Source: Streptosporangium brasiliense
GTDB lineage: Bacteria > Actinomycetota > Actinomycetes > Streptosporangiales > Streptosporangiaceae
DNA length: 64,000 bases
Assembly (NCBI RefSeq): GCF_030811595.1
Contig: NZ_JAUSRB010000002.1
Span: forward strand, 8,184,001 to 8,248,000
Reading direction: 5' to 3'
Part shown: one piece after another, positions 16,356 to 26,858 of the stretch
Numbering within the stretch: the first letter of the stretch is position 1
Layout: the number at the start of each line of letters is the position of its first letter
The notes under the pieces: generated by a model
Databases searched by the model: none
Told to the model about the DNA's origin: nothing
The model's input: only the letters and a program-made list of their open reading frames with translations
Translations under genes and position numbers: made by a program

Positions 16356-17738
16356 CTACCCGCCCGCGCCGGCCAGGCCGAGCAGCAGGTCCTTGACCTC
16401 GGTGGCGGCGAAGTGCTCCCTGGCCGCGGCGGGATCGGAGCAGAGCAGGACCGGCGCGTCGCGCGGGTCGGCCGGGAGCCGCCCGTGGGATCCCCGCACG
16501 GCCCGTGCCCCCGCGTCGAGCCCGACCACGCTCATCATGTAGCGCATGCCGAGCTTCTTGCGCAGCAGCGCCGCGGCGGCGCGGCGCTTGGCCGCGCCCG
16601 GCCCCGCCGGGTCGAAGAACAGCTCCGCCGGGTCGTAGCCCGGCTTGCGGTGGATGTCGACCAGGCGCGCGAAGTCCGGCGCCCGGGCGTCGTCGAGCCA
16701 GTAGTAGTAGGTGAACCAGGCGTCGGGCTCGGCGACCAGGACGAGCTCCCCGGCGCGGGGGTGGTCCAGCCCGTGCCGGGCCTTGCCCCCGCCGTCGAGC
16801 ACCTCGGCCACGCCGGGCAGGGCCGCGCACAGCTCGGCCACGGCCGGCACGTCGGCCGGGTCGCGCACGTAGACGTGGGCCACCTGGTGGTCGGCCACGG
16901 CGAACGCCCGTGACGTCCACGGGTCCAGATACTCCATACCCGCCTGGGTGTGCACCCGCAGCAGCCCCTCGGCGCGCAGCAGCCGGTTGACGTCGACCGG
17001 GCGGGAGACCTCCGTGATGCCGTACTCCGACAGCGCCACGACCGTGCTCCCCCGGGCGGCCGCCGCCTCCAGCAGTGGTGCCAGCACCCGGTCCAGGTCG
17101 GCGGCCGCGGCGGCCGCGCGCGGATCGGAGGGGCCGTGGCGCTGCAGGTCGTAGTCCAGGTGCGGCACGTAGGCGAGGGTGAGGTCGGGACCGTGCGTTC
17201 TCATGATCTGCTCGGTGGCCCGGCAGATCCACTCCGACGAGGCGATCCCCGCCCCCGCTCCCCAGTAGCTGAACAGCGGGAAGTCCCCCAGCCGGGCGGT
17301 GAGCGCGTCGTGCAGTTCCGGTGGGTCGGTGTAGCAGTCGGGGTCCTTTCGCCCGTCGGCGTGGTAGATCGGCCGCGGGGTGACGGTCCAGTCGACGTCG
17401 GCGCCCATGGCGTACCACCAGCACACGTTGGCCACCGTGTAGCCGGGGCGGACCCTCCGGGCGGCCTCCCAGAGCCTCTCCCCGGCGACCAGCGCGTTGT
17501 GCTGCCGCCACAGCAGCACCTCCCCCAGGTCGCGGAAGTACCAGCCGTTGCCCACGATGCCGTGGCCGGCCGGGAGCAGTCCGGTGAGGAAGGTCGACTG
17601 TACCGAGCAGGTGACGGCGGGCAGCACCGTCCCGAGCGACGCCTGGAAGCCGCCGTCGGCGACGGCGCGCAGCCGGGGCATGTGCTCCAGCGCCCGCGGG
17701 GTCAGCCCGACCACGTCGAGGACCAGCAGTGATGTCAT
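16356..17738 (-). CDS. eboF: EboF-like type I phosphodiesterase / nucleotide pyrophosphatase
   Basis: A 460-residue alkaline-phosphatase-superfamily enzyme. The N-terminal metal and nucleophile region reads LVLDVVGLTPRALEHMP then LPAVTCSVQSTFLTGLLP, with the catalytic Thr/Ser in that stretch. Further metal ligands are in PHLDYDLQRHG and the later SEYG and DH motifs. It is predicted to hydrolyse a phosphodiester or phosphate ester, presumably of the pathway intermediate. The start at 17738 overlaps the stop of eboE as ATGA; a longer in-frame start at 17759 is less likely. It is the last gene of the seven-gene operon. The EboF assignment rests on family and neighbours. Confidence 0.8.
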   Translation of the reverse strand: MTSLLVLDVVGLTPRALEHMPRLRAVADGGFQASLGTVLPAVTCSVQSTFLTGLLPAGHGIVGNGWYFRDLGEVLLWRQHNALVAGERLWEAARRVRPGYTVANVCWWYAMGADVDWTVTPRPIYHADGRKDPDCYTDPPELHDALTARLGDFPLFSYWGAGAGIASSEWICRATEQIMRTHGPDLTLAYVPHLDYDLQRHGPSDPRAAAAAADLDRVLAPLLEAAAARGSTVVALSEYGITEVSRPVDVNRLLRAEGLLRVHTQAGMEYLDPWTSRAFAVADHQVAHVYVRDPADVPAVAELCAALPGVAEVLDGGGKARHGLDHPRAGELVLVAEPDAWFTYYYWLDDARAPDFARLVDIHRKPGYDPAELFFDPAGPGAAKRRAAAALLRKKLGMRYMMSVVGLDAGARAVRGSHGRLPADPRDAPVLLCSDPAAAREHFAATEVKDLLLGLAGAGG

Positions 17739-18862
17739 GCGCTCATCCCCAGACCGCACAGTTCGGCACGGGCGAAGGCCAGCTCGGCGGCGATGCCGTC
17801 GGCGAGCTGGCCGGGGGTGCGCGGGCGCTGCGCCGCGGGGAGCACACCCCAGGTGTAGGTCTCCACGTCGAAGTGGTCGCAGGCCGCGTCGGCGGCGCCG
17901 ACCAGCTCGCCGAGCGCGTCACGCAGCAGCGGCGCGGTCGTGGCCAGCGGCGCGGCCGGGGAGGAGTGCAGCGGCACGTGGTAGTGGACCCGCCAGGGAC
18001 CGGGCAGTCCCGCCGCGAAGGCCTCGTCCAGGTCGTCGGCGGCGCCTCCCGCGGGGTTGCGGGTCTGGTGCAGGAAACGCGGTTCGGCGTACTCCCGCAG
18101 CGCGTCGGGGTCGTCGGTCTCCAGCGCGTTGGAGAGCTGGACCTTCACCACCGGCACCCGTGCCCGGCCGAGCGCGCGCAGCGCGTCGGCGGGCCTCTCC
18201 CACGCGCACGCGAGGTGCGCGAGATCCAGGCAGACGCCGAGCCGGTCGGTGTCGGCGCCGGAGAGCGCGGCGACGGCCTGGCCGGTGGTCTCGACCACGC
18301 AGCCGGGCTCCGGCTCGAAGGCGACCCTGATGACCCGCCCCGTCCGGCGCTCGATGTCGGCCAGCCCCGCGGCGAGCTCGTCGAGCATGAACGCGGCGGC
18401 GGCGGCGCGGGCGCCGTCCCAGGGGTGCCGCCACGCCAGCGGCAGCGTGGAGATGGATCCCCGCGCCGCGTCGTCCGGGAGCAGGTCGGCCAGGACGCGC
18501 GCCAGGTCGAGGGTGTAGCGCAGGCGTTCGGGGGTGGTCCAGTCGGGGTGGTAGACCGCCTGTTTGACCACGGGGTCCTGGAACGAGCGGTAGGGGAAGC
18601 CGTTGAGCGTCACCACTTCCAGGCCGCGCACGTCCAGCTCGCGGCGGAAGCGCCTGCGCGCGCCGCCGTCGACGGCGATCGCCTCGGCCACCGGCGCGGC
18701 CAGCCAGAGCCCGAGCCCGAGCACCTCGCTGCCGAGGCGCTCGCGGATCGGCAGCGCGTACTCGTCGAGCTGCCCGACGATGCCGGCGAGGTCCTCGGCC
18801 GGGTGCACGTTGGTGCAGTAGCTCAGGTGGAGCAGGCGTCCTCCCGGGTGCCGCAGGCGCAT
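17735..18862 (-). CDS. eboE: EboE-like metabolite traffic protein (TIM barrel)
   Basis: A 375-residue xylose-isomerase-like TIM barrel. The opening HLSYCTNVHPAEDLAGI is characteristic of EboE. Candidate metal-site segments are FEPEPGCVVET, CLDLAHLACAWE and VHYHVPLHSS. EboE is required, with other Ebo proteins, for moving the scytonemin monomer to the periplasm in cyanobacteria; the chemistry is not known. Here it overlaps the TatD-like gene upstream by 1 nt (TGATG) and eboF downstream by 4 nt, so its production is tied to the whole set. Confidence 0.85.
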   Translation of the reverse strand: MRLRHPGGRLLHLSYCTNVHPAEDLAGIVGQLDEYALPIRERLGSEVLGLGLWLAAPVAEAIAVDGGARRRFRRELDVRGLEVVTLNGFPYRSFQDPVVKQAVYHPDWTTPERLRYTLDLARVLADLLPDDAARGSISTLPLAWRHPWDGARAAAAAFMLDELAAGLADIERRTGRVIRVAFEPEPGCVVETTGQAVAALSGADTDRLGVCLDLAHLACAWERPADALRALGRARVPVVKVQLSNALETDDPDALREYAEPRFLHQTRNPAGGAADDLDEAFAAGLPGPWRVHYHVPLHSSPAAPLATTAPLLRDALGELVGAADAACDHFDVETYTWGVLPAAQRPRTPGQLADGIAAELAFARAELCGLGMSA

Positions 18863-19713
18863 CAGCTGCCTCCCCGCAGGATCGAGCTGCCCTCGAAGGC
18901 GGGCCCGGCGTCGCCGACGGCGGACAGGTCGAGCCGTCCCGACTGGCCGTAGAACTCCGCCGGGTTGCGCCAGAGCACCCGGTCGACGTCGTCGTCGGTG
19001 TAGCCCGCGGCGAGCATCGCCTTCCCGGTCTCCAGGGTCAGCAGCGGGTCCGAGACGCCCCAGTCGGCGGCCGAGTTGACCAGCATCCGCTCCAGCCCGT
19101 GGGTCCGCATGATCTCCACCATGCGGGGTGGCGACATCTTGGTGCCGGGGTAGATGGAGAACCCCATCCAGCAGCCGGAGTCGTGCACGAGGTCCACGGT
19201 CACCTCGTTGAGGTGGTCGATGGCGACGCGCCCCGGCGGGATGCCGGACTCGGCGACGACCTCCAGGCTGCGCCGGGTGCCGCGGGCCTTGTCCCGGTGC
19301 GGGGTGTGCACCAGCGCGGGCAGGTCGTGCTCGACGGCCAGCGCGAGCTGCGCGGCGAACACCTCGTCCTCCTCCGGGGTCATCGAGTCGTAGCCGATCT
19401 CGCCGACCGCGACGACGCCGTCCTTGTCGAGGTAGCGGGGCAGCAGGTCGAGCACCGGCCGGCAGCGCGGGTCACCCGCCTCCTTGGGGTTGAGCGCGAT
19501 CGTGGCGTGGTGGCGGATGCCGAAGTTGCCGGCCCGGTACGGTTCCCAGCCGATCAGCGAGTCGAAGTAGTCGGTGAAGGAGCCGGGGTTGGTGCGGGGC
19601 TGGCCCAGCCAGAAGGCCGGTTCGACGACCGCGCGGACTCCGGCGGCCGCCATTCTCGTGTAGTCGTCGGTGGTGCGCGAGGTCATGTGGATGTGGGGGT
19701 CGAAGATGCGCAT
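18862..19713 (-). CDS. eboB: EboB-like TatD-family metal-dependent hydrolase
   Basis: A 283-residue amidohydrolase-fold protein. The metal-binding motif DPHIHM (HxH) opens the protein. It is followed by GEIGYD, VHTPHRDK, IDHLNE and the late aspartate in NSAADWG, giving the full TatD ligand set. The substrate is unknown, presumably a phosphoester, amide or lactone in the Ebo pathway. Its ATG at 19713 overlaps the stop of eboA (TGATG). Third from last gene of the operon. Confidence 0.85.
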   Translation of the reverse strand: MRIFDPHIHMTSRTTDDYTRMAAAGVRAVVEPAFWLGQPRTNPGSFTDYFDSLIGWEPYRAGNFGIRHHATIALNPKEAGDPRCRPVLDLLPRYLDKDGVVAVGEIGYDSMTPEEDEVFAAQLALAVEHDLPALVHTPHRDKARGTRRSLEVVAESGIPPGRVAIDHLNEVTVDLVHDSGCWMGFSIYPGTKMSPPRMVEIMRTHGLERMLVNSAADWGVSDPLLTLETGKAMLAAGYTDDDVDRVLWRNPAEFYGQSGRLDLSAVGDAGPAFEGSSILRGGS

Positions 19714-20318
19714 CAAGCCTCCTTCTCGGCTGTCAGCCGGTTGAGCAGGGCGGTCGCGTCCGCGGGGATCGAGCGCCCGGCGGCGGCGCGCTCCTCGGCC
19801 AGCGCGGCCAGCATCACGGCCAGTTCCGGGTCCGCCCGCTCGGCCAGGGCGTCCACCGCCGCCAGCGGGACGCCCATGAACACGCACTTGAGCACCGCCT
19901 GCCGCCACGCCGCCTGGTCGAGGTCGCGGGCGCAGGGGCCGAGCGCCGCGGCCACCAGGCGGGCGTCGTTGGTGCGGATCGCGTCGTGGAGCAGGGGTGG
20001 GGCCGCCGGGCCGACCGCCAGCATCGGCAGCGCCTTGAGCACCGCGCGCTTCTCGTCGGGGTCGCCGTACCGGTAGAGGGCGGTGACCTCCTCGGCGGCC
20101 CGGTCCGGCGGCAGCGCGGCCAGCAGCAGCGCCCTGACGGCCTCGTCCGCCGTCCAGCCCGGGGCGTCCGGCAGCGGCGCCCGCCCGGCGTTGCGCCCGG
20201 CGGCGGCGAAGGACCGCCCGACCGTCTCGGGCCGCTCCGCCAGGCGCGCCAGCGCGCCGTCCAGCCATCCCCGCGCCGGTACGGCCGGCAGCGCGGCCCG
20301 CAGTCGTTCCGGTCCCAT
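19713..20318 (-). CDS. eboA: EboA-domain protein
   Basis: A 201-residue helical protein of the EboA family, recognised from the central block RTNDARLVAAALGPCA followed by WRQAVLKCVFMGVPLAAV and ELAVMLAALAEERAAAGR. No enzymatic motif is visible; the function is unknown, and it may scaffold the other Ebo enzymes. Overlaps of 1 nt on both sides (with the isomerase-like gene upstream and eboB downstream) place it inside the operon. Confidence 0.85.
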   Translation of the reverse strand: MGPERLRAALPAVPARGWLDGALARLAERPETVGRSFAAAGRNAGRAPLPDAPGWTADEAVRALLLAALPPDRAAEEVTALYRYGDPDEKRAVLKALPMLAVGPAAPPLLHDAIRTNDARLVAAALGPCARDLDQAAWRQAVLKCVFMGVPLAAVDALAERADPELAVMLAALAEERAAAGRSIPADATALLNRLTAEKEA

Positions 20319-21223
20319 CACGGCTCCTCCCCTCCGGCGGCCGTCCTCGCGGCGGCGCCCCCTCCGGTGGTGCGATCTCCGGCGCCCTGCGCTCCGGCCG
20401 CGCGCAGGAAGTCGATCGAGCGGGCGGCCACGGCCGGCGCGGCGTGCGAATGGCGGGGGAGCTCGACCGCGACCAGCCCGCGGTAGCCGATCTCGCCGAG
20501 CGCGCGCAGCACCGGCGGGAAGTCGATCTCCCCCTCCCCGAACTCCAGGTGCTCGTGCACGCCCCGGCGCATGTCGTCGATCTGCACGTTGACCAGGTGG
20601 TCGGCGACGGCCCGCACGCAGGCGGGCACCGGCTCCGGCTCGACGCAGCGGCAGTGGCCGATGTCGAGGGTCAGGCCGAAGACAGCCGGCGCGCCGAGCG
20701 CCGCACGCAGCCGCCGCCACCCGGCGACCGTCTCGACGAGCATCCCCGGTTCGGGCTCGAAGCCCAGGGGCAGGCCCGCGGCCTCGGCGGGGCCGACGAG
20801 CTGGGCGCAGCCGTCCACGAGGCGTTCCCAGGCGACCCCCTCCGCCACCCCGGCCGGGCGCACGCCCGCCCAGAAGGACACCGCCTCGGCGCCCAGGTCG
20901 GCGCCTATCGCGATCGCCCTGCGCAGGAAGTCCAGCCGCGTCCGCCGCTCGTCGTGCAGCAGGGTGGGAGCGTGCTTGCGCCGGGGGTCCAGCAGGTAGC
21001 GCGCGCCGGTCTCGATCACCACCGCGAGGCCGAGGCCGCGCAGCCGGTCGGCCAGCGCCGCCACCCTCCGGGCCAGCCCGCCGGCGTAGGGGTCGAGATG
21101 GCCGTGGTCGAGCGTCAGGGCCACGCCGGTGTAGCCGAGGTCAGCGATGACCTCGCAGGCGTCGGCCAGCCGGTGGTTGGCGAACCCGTTGGTCCCGTAG
21201 CCGAACCTGAGGGCGGCGCTCAC
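20318..21223 (-). CDS. Sugar phosphate isomerase/epimerase-like TIM barrel
   Basis: A 301-residue AP-endonuclease-2/xylose-isomerase-like barrel. Metal-site candidates in order are FEPEPGM, LTLDIGHCRC, NVQIDDMRRGVHEH and AVELPRHSH, matching the E-D-H-E pattern of divalent-metal isomerases. It probably isomerises or epimerises the sugar-like product of the neighbouring cyclase. The GTG start at 21223 overlaps the ubiA-like stop as GTGA. It is a second barrel in addition to EboE and is not part of the classical six-gene ebo set. Confidence 0.85.
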   Translation of the reverse strand: MSAALRFGYGTNGFANHRLADACEVIADLGYTGVALTLDHGHLDPYAGGLARRVAALADRLRGLGLAVVIETGARYLLDPRRKHAPTLLHDERRTRLDFLRRAIAIGADLGAEAVSFWAGVRPAGVAEGVAWERLVDGCAQLVGPAEAAGLPLGFEPEPGMLVETVAGWRRLRAALGAPAVFGLTLDIGHCRCVEPEPVPACVRAVADHLVNVQIDDMRRGVHEHLEFGEGEIDFPPVLRALGEIGYRGLVAVELPRHSHAAPAVAARSIDFLRAAGAQGAGDRTTGGGAAARTAAGGEEP

Positions 21224-22287
21224 GTCGGTGAGACCTTCCGGGCGAGCCGCCGGCCGAGCGGGGCGGCCACCGCCACGGCCAGTCCTGCGGGGACGGCGCC
21301 GGCGCGGACGGCGAGCGCGCCCTGCAGCGCGGGCAGCACGGTGATGCCGGTCCCGACGGCGCCGCGGATCCGTGGCGCGGAGGGGTCGGCGACGGCCCTG
21401 GCCTGGGCGGATCCGAACCGCGCGAGATACCAGGAGGCGAGCGCCGCCTGGAGGGCCGGTCCCCGGCCGGCGCCCCGCCCGCGTCCGGCGGCGGCGACCC
21501 CCGCGGCCAGCGCCGCCGTAGCGGCCAGGGTCGCCGTGGGCAGCAGGCGGTCGGCGCCGGACACCTCGCGCCGCGACAGCGAGGTGATCATGTAGGTGTG
21601 GGCGGCGACCGCGAGGGCGGGGGGCAGCGCGGCGGCGAACGTGCGCGGCGGCGGCCACGCCCGCGGCCCCCCGCCCGGCGGCGCTCCCGTCCCGCCTTGG
21701 AAGCCCGTCCCGTCCCTGAGGTCCGTCCCAGCTCGGAAGCCCGTCCCGCCCCTGAAGCCCGTCCCGCCCCTGGAGTCCGTCCCAGCTCGGAAGCCTGTCC
21801 CGCCCCTGAAGCCCGTCCCGTCCCTGGAGTCCGGACGGCCGGCGGCGGGACACGCGCCGAGCAGCACGTCCAGGGCACGGCAGGCGGCCATCACGGCGGG
21901 ACCGGCGGGCGTGTCCTTCGCCAGCAGGTCGTAGGTCCATATGGCGGCGGCGAGCGGCACGGCCACGGCGAGCCCCCGGCGGCCGGCGGCGAGCCCGGCC
22001 GCCGCCAGGCCCGCGCCGGTCAGCCCGGCGGCGGCCGCCAGCGCCAGCCCCGGAGACACCCGGCCGGACGGTATCGGCCGCCGCGGGCGTTCCACCGCGT
22101 CCAGGTGGCGGTCGGCCCAGTCGTTGGCCGCCATCCCGGCCCAGTACAGGCAGACCGACGCGGCTGCCAGTGCCGGTGTCCGGCGGCCGAGCGTCCCGGC
22201 GGCCGAGCCGCCGGCCACGACGTCACCCGGCACGGACAGCACGGCCGGCCCGCGCACCAGCTCCAGGAGGTCGCGTACCGCCGCCAT
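21220..22287 (-). CDS. eboC: UbiA-family prenyltransferase (EboC-like)
   Basis: A 355-residue multi-pass membrane protein that should transfer a prenyl chain to a polar acceptor. The first aspartate-rich motif is NDWADRHLDAVERPRRPIPS, and the second is near YDLLAKDTPAGP, in the normal order. Between these and the later helices sits an unusual 50-residue hydrophilic insertion of hexapeptide repeats (see the repeat feature). Its membrane helices are alanine/leucine-rich. The start at 22287 overlaps the cyclase stop (TGATG). It resembles the UbiA enzymes annotated as SCO3242-family in streptomycetes, which lie beside an inositol-phosphate-synthase-like gene. Confidence 0.85.
   Translation of the reverse strand: MAAVRDLLELVRGPAVLSVPGDVVAGGSAAGTLGRRTPALAAASVCLYWAGMAANDWADRHLDAVERPRRPIPSGRVSPGLALAAAAGLTGAGLAAAGLAAGRRGLAVAVPLAAAIWTYDLLAKDTPAGPAVMAACRALDVLLGACPAAGRPDSRDGTGFRGGTGFRAGTDSRGGTGFRGGTGFRAGTDLRDGTGFQGGTGAPPGGGPRAWPPPRTFAAALPPALAVAAHTYMITSLSRREVSGADRLLPTATLAATAALAAGVAAAGRGRGAGRGPALQAALASWYLARFGSAQARAVADPSAPRIRGAVGTGITVLPALQGALAVRAGAVPAGLAVAVAAPLGRRLARKVSPT
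21686..21832 (-). repeat. In-frame 18-bp minisatellite inside the prenyltransferase gene
   Basis: About eight 18-bp units encode hexapeptides of the form G-T-[GD]-[FSL]-R-[GAD]. A 54-bp higher-order unit occurs at 21721-21774 and again at 21775-21828 with two mismatches. All units keep the reading frame, and the array falls in a loop after the second aspartate motif. Confidence 0.85.
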
Positions 22288-23443
22288 CAGGACCGCTCCC
22301 GCGGCTCGAGCCCGGCGACGAAGTCGCACAGCACCCGCCACTGCTCGGCCAGGGCGTGCGGCTGCGGCCCGAGCGGATCCTTGAAGAAGAAGGCGAGCTC
22401 GGTGAGCGGGCCGACCCGCCCGGACCGGTGCGCCGCCGCGGTCAGCCGTGCCAGGTCGAGCACCAGGGGCGCGGCGAGCGCGGAGTCGCAGCCGTGCCAG
22501 GTGAACTCCATGCGCATCGGCACGCCGAGGAACCCCTCGAAGGTCACCAGGTCCCAGGCGGTCTTGAAGTCGCCGATGTCCTCCAGATACTCGATGCGGG
22601 TGGTGCCCTGGGGGGTGTAGCCGAGCGTCTCGGCCAGCACCCGCTGCTTGCTGGGCGGTCTTGGCCGCGTTGGGCGCCGGCTCGGCGAGGTTGGCCGCCG
22701 TCCCGCCCGCCGCCCAGCAGGTTGATCCCCGACCACGTCCGCACCCGCAGGTTGCGCAGGGCGAACATCGGGGCGAGCACCGACTTGACCAGCGTCTCAC
22801 CGGTCTTGCCGTCGTGCCCGCCGTACGGCAGGCCCTGCCGCCTGGCGAGCTGGTCCAGGGCGGGCAGCCGGGCCACCGGGTCGACGGGGTGAAGTCCCAC
22901 GTAGGGGCAGCCGCTGCCGAAGGCGGCGTAGGCGTAGAGCGCGCTCGCGGGCAGCAGCGTCCGCGAGCGGGGCAGCTCGGCCTCCAGCGCCGCCAGGTCG
23001 GCGTGCGCGGGGTGCGGCTCGGGCGCCGGCTCGGTGGTCGACACGTTGATCACGACGACCCGGTCCAGGCCGTGCCGCCGCCGGAAATCGGTCAGGTCGG
23101 CGCCTATCAGCTCCGCCGTCCCCGCCTGGTCGCCGGCCTCGGGCGCCGGCCGCAGCTCCCGCTCGACCGCCGGCAGCTCGTCGTGGAGCGCTCTGACCAG
23201 CCACGCCGGCACCACCCCGGCGACGGCCAGCGCGTCGGCCTTCTTGGCCAGGGGCGTCGAGGAGACGTCGTGCCCGCCGAAGACGAGATCCCCCGGACCG
23301 GGGATCCCCGGGTGGCGCAGTCCGGGCAGCTCGGTGACGCAGCCGGTCGGACCGACCAGGCCCGCGCGCAGCGCGAGGGCCCCGATCACGCTGGTGGCGG
23401 CGACCGATCCCCGCGCTCCCACCAGCCACACTCCTGTACGCAT
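22287..23443 (-). pseudogene. Myo-inositol-1-phosphate synthase-like cyclase with two frameshifts
   Basis: The frame from 23443 encodes an inositol-3-phosphate synthase-like protein: NAD-binding GARGSVAATS, DVSSTPLAKKADAL, GHDGKTGETLVKSVLAP and TWSGINLLGGG. After LLGGG the homology shifts to a second frame (ANLAEP, NAAKTA) and then to a third (SKQRVLAETLGYTPQG, then GFLGVPMRMEFTWHGCDSAL). Removing one base from a C run at 22702-22708 and one from GGG at 22653-22655 restores a 384-residue frame. AGGAGG precedes the start. The reaction would be cyclisation of a hexose phosphate. Downstream genes are intact and coupled, so sequencing error is as likely as true decay. Confidence 0.8.
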
Positions 23444-25461: not shown

Positions 25462-26562
25462 TCAGTGGGGAGACGCGGCGATCCGTACGCGGTGGCTGTC
25501 GTCGTCGGACAGGAACGACGCCAGCGCCCGCCCCTGCTCGGCGACGGTGGTGCGGTCGGCCCGGGAGAAGCGGCGCAGCGGGGTGACCGTCACGGTGCCG
25601 GCCCTGACGTCCCAGGTCGCGGCCACCCGGCCGTCGACCAGCACCACGCGTGCGCCGGCGACCGACAGGCCGCGGTGGGCGTCGTCGACGATCCGGCTGC
25701 GGTCGTGGTAACCGAGGAGCGCGTTGTCGAACGCCGGCAGGAACCGCACCGGGGCGGGTGTGTCGGGGTCCGGGCGCGGCGCGTCGGGGAGGTCCAGCAG
25801 TTCCCGGCCTCGCTCGTCGCGGAAGGTGACCAGCTCCTCGCGTACCGCGGCCACCGCGGCCGGCAGTCCGGCCAGGCCGCACCAGGCGCGCAGGTCGGCC
25901 GCGGCGGCGGGGCCGAACGCGGCCAGATAGCGCCGTACCAGCGCTCCGCCCACCGGATCGGAGCCCGCCGGGGCCGGCGGGTCGATCTCGCGCCCCAGCC
26001 AGGAGGAGAGCAGGACGTTGCGCACCCCCGCCTTCGTGCGCCACAGCCCGCGCGGTGGCAGCTGCGCCATCGGGACGAGGGCGGCGACCAGCATTTCGCC
26101 CAGCGCCCGCGGGCCCGGCGCCGGCCAGCGCCCGGCCAGCGCCCGCGCGAGCTCGGCCATCGAGCGGGGCTCGTCGTCGGCCATCACCGCCCGGCCCGCC
26201 GTCGCGAGCTCGTCGAGATCCACCCCGGCGAGCTCGCGGCGGTAGGTCCCGAGCACCCGCTGGCGCAGCATGGTGTCGTGACGGGCCCGCCAGGCCAGGG
26301 CGTCGTCGGCGGTGAGGAGGTGGACGGTGCGGCGCATGAGGTGGGTCCGCACCACGCTCCGCCGGGTCAGCAGGTCCGAGAGCGCCGCCGGGTCGAACGC
26401 GCGCAGCCGGGACCAGAGCCCGACGAACGGTTCCTGCGGTTCCTGCGCCTGCAGGCCGCACAGGTGCGCGACGGCGTCGAGGACCGGCATGTCGGCGCGG
26501 TCGAGCAGCAGTTGCCGGGCGAGCGTCGCGCGGTTGAGCGCCCGGGTGTCGAGAACAGTCAT
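25462..26562 (-). CDS. Winged-helix AlkZ-like (HTH_42) protein
   Basis: A 366-residue protein of the winged-helix family that contains the AlkZ/YcaQ DNA glycosylases. The N-terminal block MTVLDTRALNRATLARQ leads into HLCGLQAQEPQEPF, where QAQ occupies the position of the QxQ/QxD catalytic motif, then VVRTHLMRRTVHLLTADD, and a late FLPAFDNALLGYHDRSRI. Members unhook interstrand crosslinks or excise alkylated bases; many are uncharacterised. A GTG at 26571 would overlap the stop of the upstream pseudogene, but the ATG at 26562 fits family starts. It is not beside a genotoxin cluster here, so a resistance role is speculative. Confidence 0.75.
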   Translation of the reverse strand: MTVLDTRALNRATLARQLLLDRADMPVLDAVAHLCGLQAQEPQEPFVGLWSRLRAFDPAALSDLLTRRSVVRTHLMRRTVHLLTADDALAWRARHDTMLRQRVLGTYRRELAGVDLDELATAGRAVMADDEPRSMAELARALAGRWPAPGPRALGEMLVAALVPMAQLPPRGLWRTKAGVRNVLLSSWLGREIDPPAPAGSDPVGGALVRRYLAAFGPAAAADLRAWCGLAGLPAAVAAVREELVTFRDERGRELLDLPDAPRPDPDTPAPVRFLPAFDNALLGYHDRSRIVDDAHRGLSVAGARVVLVDGRVAATWDVRAGTVTVTPLRRFSRADRTTVAEQGRALASFLSDDDSHRVRIAASPH

Positions 26563-26567
26563 CGGGG

Positions 26568-26858
26568 TCACGCCGCGGCGCGCTCGTCGGCCGACCGTCG
26601 GCGTGGCGCCGCGCGGGTGACGGCCGGCACGGTGTCGTCGCGTCGGCCCTTCGGGGCCCTGCCCGCGACTTCCTCCGACTCCCCGTGGGGTCCGTACACG
26701 TCGGCGGTGCCGACGGGGTCGATCCCCGGGTCCGGGGCCCGGTGGATGATCCGCACGCGGTCGTCGCGGCCGGTGTCACCGGCCGGTCCGGGCATCATGG
26801 TGCCCGGGCGGTGGGGGCCGATCTGGATCCCGGTCCGGCCCAGCGCGCGAATCCTCAC
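26568..26858 (-). pseudogene. Aldo/keto reductase remnant
   Basis: A 96-residue frame keeps the N-terminal signature of aldo/keto reductases (ALGRTGIQIG, then RVRIIHRAPDPGID, GTADVYGPHGESEEV, KGRRDD) and then loses homology and stops. A functional enzyme is about 320 residues. Several substitutions change leucine or phenylalanine to proline at conserved places (LGTMMFG becomes PGTMMPG; ALDAGINFVDT becomes APDPGIDPVGT), and the catalytic region is missing. GGAAGG precedes the GTG. It is best read as a decayed fragment. Confidence 0.7.

Follow-up and report, generated by a model that had tools for sequence, protein, structure and literature searches.

We have analyzed a 64,000 nucleotide stretch of the genome of Streptosporangium brasiliense (this whole stretch is referred to here as the window) and found that it carries an ebo operon of the SCO3242/SCO3243 type, i.e., one in which the ring-forming enzyme is a myo-inositol-1-phosphate synthase (MIPS)-type cyclase and not the dehydroquinate (DHQ)-synthase-like EboD of the classical eboABCDEF cluster (PMC5133447). 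Gene content, gene order, overlap coupling, protein families, the lack of EboD and a wide conservation are all shown by the data. The genome measures 10.49 Mb, and its closest relatives with names are Streptosporangium subroseum and other Streptosporangiaceae.

Seven coding units are found on the minus strand, from 23443 to 16356, in the order cyclase-UbiA-SPI-EboA-TatD-EboE-PDE (Table 1), where SPI stands for a sugar phosphate isomerase-epimerase-like TIM barrel and PDE for a phosphodiesterase. An earlier reading of this DNA, made from the letters alone (the sequence-only reading), had proposed a seven-gene ebo-like operon with overlaps of 1–4 nt, containing EboA and EboE and with a TIM-barrel isomerase added to the ebo set. 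All of this held. Read from the sequence, the six junctions overlap without exception, by 1, 4, 1, 1, 1 and 4 nt in gene order. NCBIfam and Pfam profiles, scored against the cut-offs of the models, assigned both EboA (150.7 bits) and EboE (402.6 bits), and the isomerase (PF01261, 121 bits) falls outside the six classical genes. EboA passed the EboA-domain model and scored 68 bits against the full-length EboA family model, under its cut-off of 320; the UbiA protein passed the SCO3242 model instead of the classical EboC model NF035940 (114.8 bits, under the cut-off of 250). The SPI protein gave weak matches to IolE, IolO and hydroxypyruvate isomerase, and the TatD and PDE proteins were 43 and 54% identical, respectively, to those of an EboD-type cluster (L062). 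The window shares with the classical ebo cluster (PMC5133447) the EboA domain, a TatD-like EboB, a UbiA-type EboC, EboE, a PF01663 EboF, the compact operon and the presence of a sugar phosphate cyclase that forms the ring. It differs in the type of this cyclase, the extra SPI, the SCO3242 subfamily of the UbiA protein and the order of the genes, cyclase-UbiA-SPI-EboA-EboB-EboE-EboF. The word "inositol" is absent from the main text of PMC5133447 (Yurchenko et al., 2016).

Table 1. Genes of the operon and overlapping junctions between them (window positions).
Feature	Position	Strand	Details
MIPS-type (myo-inositol-1-phosphate-synthase-like) cyclase	22287..23443	-	PF07994 + PF01658; first gene, two frameshifts
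SCO3242-family UbiA-type prenyltransferase, EboC counterpart	21220..22287	-	NF045897 356 bits, cut-off 260
AP_endonuc_2 / sugar phosphate isomerase-epimerase-like TIM barrel (SPI)	20318..21223	-	PF01261 121 bits
EboA-domain protein	19713..20318	-	NF035938 150.7 bits, cut-off 50
TatD-like metal-dependent hydrolase, EboB counterpart	18862..19713	-	PF01026 41.4 bits, cut-off 27
EboE	17735..18862	-	NF035939 402.6 bits, cut-off 250
Type I phosphodiesterase / nucleotide pyrophosphatase (PDE), EboF counterpart	16356..17738	-	PF01663 208 bits
Cyclase/UbiA junction	22287		TGATG, 1 nt
UbiA/SPI junction	21223		GTGA, 4 nt
SPI/EboA junction	20318		TGATG, 1 nt
EboA/TatD junction	19713		TGATG, 1 nt
TatD/EboE junction	18862		TGATG, 1 nt
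EboE/PDE junction	17738		ATGA, 4 nt

The best solved-structure relative of the cluster cyclases was the MIPS of Archaeoglobus (E 3e-68). Archaeoglobus fulgidus MIPS (1u1i and mutants) is a characterised inositol-1-phosphate synthase, to which the cluster cyclase is likened by sequence only, and eight aligned active-site residues (D225, N255, D261, K274, K278, K306, D332 and K367 in Archaeoglobus numbering) were identical in 25 out of 25 intact actinobacterial cluster cyclases; they were scored in these intact orthologues and not in the copy of the window, which is broken (see below). The actinobacterial cluster cyclases formed one clade in the MIPS tree (SH-aLRT 97). Housekeeping Ino1 was a separate gene in the ebo genomes, over the cut-off in 19 of 29, and a housekeeping Ino1 role was therefore rejected as the main reading. 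That the cyclase gene just duplicates the inositol-1-phosphate synthase needed for mycothiol or phosphatidylinositol, and happens to lie beside the ebo cluster, would agree with the Pfam families and the intact active-site residues, which are those of a true MIPS, but is very improbable given the separate mycothiol-type Ino1 of the same genomes, the clade that the cluster cyclases form by themselves, and the first position, overlap coupling and operon linkage that hold across the phylum.

There is no EboD in the operon, and none was found elsewhere in the genome that serves it: the sole DHQ-synthase-type gene of the genome scored 177.7 bits against the EboD-type model, whose cut-off is 333. 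These scores agree with the sequence-only reading, which had relied on the absence of a canonical EboD. Over the 31 ebo genomes, EboD (NF004852) passed the cut-off in a single one (G437), whose ebo cluster is classical, so that the MIPS-type cluster and EboD are mutually exclusive in this sample. Classical clusters were also found on plasmids of Deinococcus, Azospirillum, Aureibacter, Salipiger, Mycetohabitans and Ketogulonicigenium, all with a DHQ-synthase-like gene. On a Gemmatirosa plasmid, MIPS and SPI genes (the SPI 50% identical to that of the window) are located among ebo genes of the classical type. The Gemmatirosa TatD and PDE are 71 and 61% identical to their Deinococcus counterparts, and in the TatD tree a grouping with the actinobacterial MIPS type was rejected (p = 1.6e-36). 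The same grouping was not rejected for PDE (0.136) and EboE (0.527), and for UbiA the grouping with the EboD type was not rejected either (0.246). These data suggest, without proving it, that MIPS together with SPI can take the place of EboD and that the cyclase modules look interchangeable; the earlier idea of a MIPS-type enzyme in the cyclase position, acting as a parallel cyclase, is strengthened by MIPS and SPI standing among EboD-type ebo genes. A different MIPS-containing set, with YcaO, Gfo/Idh/MocA and SPI genes, was seen on Roseomonas and Hymenobacter plasmids (L279:7977-16564 and L280:5932-12558).

The comparison with other actinobacterial ebo loci that the sequence-only reading had proposed was carried out, and it added a point absent from that reading, namely that this layout is common in the phylum. 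In a scan of 84,980 species we obtained at least 590 relatives of EboE, the best 80 of which were read. The complete cyclase-UbiA-SPI-EboA-TatD-EboE-PDE order was present in 48 of these best 80 loci; most of the others were truncated at a contig end or corresponded to a cyclase-less Streptomyces variant. The seven-gene order also appeared in most of 31 further loci. A SCO3242-type gene was over the cut-off in 13 of 60 genomes of relatives (own genome counted), and EboE in 18 of 396 genomes of the phylum. Since the order is kept across the phylum in relatives at roughly 40–90% identity, the operon is more than a chance arrangement. The cyclase-less variant had a CrtO-like FAD oxidase upstream in eight loci (L059, L156, L159, L171, L174, L177, L186 and L193) and an inositol-monophosphatase-family gene in six (best model histidinol-phosphatase, below cut-off), and a cluster-type cyclase was found elsewhere in 14 of the 15 genomes with such a locus. 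In Streptomyces coelicolor, SCO3243 (myo-inositol phosphate synthase) and SCO3242 (putative transferase) are among the genes of the calcium-dependent antibiotic (CDA) cluster (PMC3610822). Compared by name only, they belong to the same cyclase and prenyltransferase families as the genes of the window, and the NCBIfam UbiA model is named after SCO3242. No CDA cluster was identified among the nearest annotated neighbours of the window operon.

Besides, the relatives have a recurrent neighbourhood of secreted sugar-oxidising proteins, on which the sequence-only reading was silent. The recurrent flanking families are secreted GSDH-PKD-CBM6 proteins, ThuA-3-keto-disaccharide-hydrolase proteins, TIM-barrel isomerases, Gfo/Idh/MocA oxidoreductases, sugar ABC transporters and polyprenyl diphosphate synthases, a gene of this last type lying beside 11 loci. 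Secreted GSDH, ThuA or 3-keto-disaccharide-hydrolase proteins were found at 4.5 kb or less from nearly half the loci. The 6 kb flanks (about 1.07 Mb) gave 44 GSDH, 47 ThuA and 29 3-keto hydrolase matches, and none of the three turned up in random stretches, 800 kb in total, of the genome of the window and a congener. Most of these partner genes (56 of 63) share the strand of the operon. In Streptomyces they are located upstream, in Micromonospora downstream, suggesting separate origins of the linkage. Partners were near 47 of 83 cyclase-bearing loci vs. 2 of 18 cyclase-less ones (p = 5e-4), and ThuA was present in 14 of 17 ebo genomes vs. 50 of 377 others in the phylum (p = 1e-9), both values being uncorrected for phylogeny. 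Within the genus, the number of ThuA genes was 9–11 in three genomes with an intact operon, 0–5 in twelve without operon and 3 in the genome of the window. On two Streptomyces plasmids a ScyD/ScyE-family gene lies directly upstream of the cyclase, an arrangement reminiscent of scytonemin producers, where ebo is paired with ScyE (PMC6282210). The scytonemin-linked ebo of Nostoc punctiforme, paired with a secreted ScyE, shares EboA, B, C, E and F with the window but has an EboD-type cyclase, and the window is without a ScyE-type gene. PqqE was over the cut-off in only 4 of 29 actinobacterial ebo genomes, so the supply of pyrroloquinoline quinone (PQQ) for the GSDH partners is not obvious. Among classical clusters, that of the industrial sugar oxidiser Ketogulonicigenium vulgare is surrounded by two Gfo/Idh/MocA genes and one SPI gene (L268:3774-13122), and those of Mycetohabitans and Aureibacter adjoin a gene for a ferritin-like protein (L270:3987-5069 and L227:835-2103).

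We have found a similar set in haloarchaea. MIPS (43–46% identical) was present on plasmids of Halobaculum, Halocatena and Natronococcus, together with PDE and TatD-SPI-UbiA-SPI. Their UbiA scored 177.7 bits with the EboC model and 169.9 bits with the SCO3242 model, far over other UbiA models and under both cut-offs. These sets differ from the window in that no gene is annotated as EboA, two SPI proteins match the EboE model weakly and the layout is partly divergent. Partners were again seen in two of the three, ThuA near the Halocatena set and a PQQ-type sugar dehydrogenase near that of Natronococcus. The gene families are already curated in NCBIfam. In the open-access papers that we searched, we found none tying ebo to MIPS, GSDH/ThuA or haloarchaea, and the MIPS-type ebo operon, its secreted partners and the haloarchaeal relatives appear undescribed there.

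The cyclase gene of the window does not run in one frame. Open reading frame 23443..22544 codes for the first ~245 residues and 22736..22287 for the last ~120, a short piece in the third frame separating the two, and both MIPS Pfam domains are present but spread over two frames, vs. a single frame in the congener L082. A frame-aware coding hidden Markov model placed the breaks near 22714 and 22650, and the DNA alignment with five relatives revealed +4 and +1 nt with respect to congeners in the stretch 22640..22730. Thus, the sequence-only reading was right about the family (PF07994/PF01658) and the first position of the MIPS-like gene and wrong in taking it as one open frame, having overlooked the two frameshifts. 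The frame runs unbroken through this stretch in the examined orthologues, so that the window has either a lesion of very recent date or an error of assembly. The dN/dS values of both halves (0.25–0.41) match those of the other operon genes (0.21–0.40), so any loss of the cyclase would be recent. The pathway is either intact, the assembly being in error, or very recently disabled. Frameshift-like events numbered 6 in 345 kb of coding sequence of this genome vs. 3 in 321 kb of a congener, few enough that a generally poor assembly is not evident. Two more frameshift-like spots of the genome, with long coding runs on both sides, are in L238 near 3574 and in L243 near 14640 (minus strand).

That the operon is dying in this strain, the frameshifts being real and the pathway on its way to be lost, we hold to be a serious possibility, somewhat short of an even chance; this possibility bears on the strain alone and is no rival of the functional readings. 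The two insertions fall ~60 nt apart within one gene, similar events are scarce in the rest of the genome, the flanking partner genes are missing in the window and the ThuA genes are few when compared with the congeners that have intact operons. On the other hand, both cyclase halves have dN/dS values resembling those of the other operon genes, the six remaining genes are all intact, and single-base insertions in GC runs are typical assembly errors.

The UbiA-type protein has the first aspartate-rich motif NDxxDxxxD (NDWADRHLD, from residue 55 onward). A tandem repeat of 54 bp (3 x 18 bp) in its gene (window 21686-21833) encodes a GTGFRxG-type insert at about residues 155–200, which is strain-specific, as the congeners L082 and L078 are without it. 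EboA was predicted to be a HEAT-like alpha-solenoid (AlphaFold2 mean pLDDT 96.9), a likely scaffold by this model. In a fold search its matches were generic helical repeats only (Foldseek E > 0.1, best Z 10.3, which is the chance level for such repeats), and the bilin lyases CpcE/F that appeared among them were not accepted as kin. A second EboE-like gene of this genome, 40% identical, stands solo at C2:2042622 (L057:9587-10537) near radA/sms, with no further ebo gene around it. An AlkZ-like DNA glycosylase gene lies near the operon (window 25462-26571; PF06224, 253.5 bits).

As to function, we give about an even chance to the operon making a prenylated, cyclitol-derived membrane lipid that would serve oxidative reactions outside the cytoplasm. 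Judging from the families, the substrate of the cyclase would be a hexose 6-phosphate and its product a cyclitol phosphate, either inositol 1-phosphate or a close compound, MIPS plus SPI performing the job of EboD in classical ebo. SPI, the TatD-like protein and EboE may isomerise, dehydrate or hydrolyse the ring and so remodel it, the UbiA-type protein would link it, in the membrane, with a prenyl chain, EboF would cleave a phosphate-containing intermediate and EboA would be a helical-repeat scaffold. For the prenylation step, the in vitro support comes from a distant EboC, of flavobacterial origin, which farnesylates aromatic acceptors in membrane fractions (PMC9235831). The gene neighbourhoods suggest that the lipid serves extracytoplasmic oxidation by secreted propeller-type proteins, which would be the GSDH/ThuA partners in actinobacteria and haloarchaea and ScyE in scytonemin producers; it may carry a compound or give its help while bound to the membrane.

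Several points weigh against such a lipid. Its nature as a prenylated cyclitol and the substrates are deduced from family membership only, and the sole acceptors assayed with an EboC are aromatic and not cyclitols (PMC9235831). The UbiA-type protein of the window lacks the second aspartate motif, and most of the EboC-type, SCO3242-type and haloarchaeal rows have a T...(S/A)xxE-type stretch in its place. The links with the neighbourhood are correlations, the ThuA counts following also genome size and lineage, and GSDH, ThuA and ScyE genes are absent from the flanks of the window itself. To this must be added the broken frame of the cyclase in the window and the phenotype of Nostoc, which suits export better than a cofactor (PMC6282210).

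Export, as concluded for Nostoc, where arrival of the scytonemin monomer in the periplasm required every tested ebo gene (PMC6282210), is the main rival. The Ebo proteins would then build and recycle a lipid carrier ferrying a small molecule, and the neighbouring oxidases would act on the cargo. EboE is named "metabolite traffic protein" by NCBI, SCO3242/SCO3243 are listed in the CDA cluster (PMC3610822), and polyketide-type genes or a multicopper oxidase adjoin some loci, but the operon has no transporter gene and its recurrent partners are sugar-oxidising proteins and not one class of exported metabolite. We consider it unlikely that export is the main role, and the two readings would be compatible should the carrier be the lipid itself. 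A lone eboE was also seen in a type II polyketide-like cluster of a Streptomyces plasmid (L273:8980-10158), where 9 kb around it held no further ebo gene.

That the operon serves the catabolism or salvage of oxidised sugars or of cyclitols, with secreted proteins that make and cleave 3-keto-glycosides and Ebo enzymes that process what is taken up, is improbable. The ThuA, 3-keto-disaccharide hydrolase, isomerase and sugar ABC transporter genes of the flanks speak for it, as does a flanking Gfo/Idh/MocA oxidoreductase that is levoglucosan-dehydrogenase-like (373 bits, below cut-off). DUF1080 proteins, which have similar neighbours in Caulobacter, have been proposed to hydrolyse 3-ketoglycosides in the periplasm (PMC9007349). 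However, MIPS and UbiA, a biosynthetic cyclase and a prenyltransferase, are both ill-suited to catabolism, and the sugar-oxidation neighbours are often missing at classical ebo clusters.

A bolder version of the lipid proposal, a long shot in our estimation, is that ebo with either cyclase makes a new prenylated quinone-like or cyclitol redox lipid, the electron acceptor or cofactor of the secreted propeller-type oxidoreductases GSDH and ScyE. The isomerase/dehydratase-like TIM barrels would dehydrate the cyclitol towards a polyphenol that EboC would prenylate. If true, this would explain why the same operon goes with sugar oxidation in actinobacteria and haloarchaea and with scytonemin maturation in cyanobacteria.

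The chemistry of MIPS, from glucose 6-phosphate to inositol 1-phosphate, is well understood, and a natural swap to this enzyme narrows the possible ring of the ebo pathway. The function of ebo matters across several phyla, plastids included, and the recurrent secreted sugar-oxidising and ScyE-type neighbours point to reactions worth assaying.

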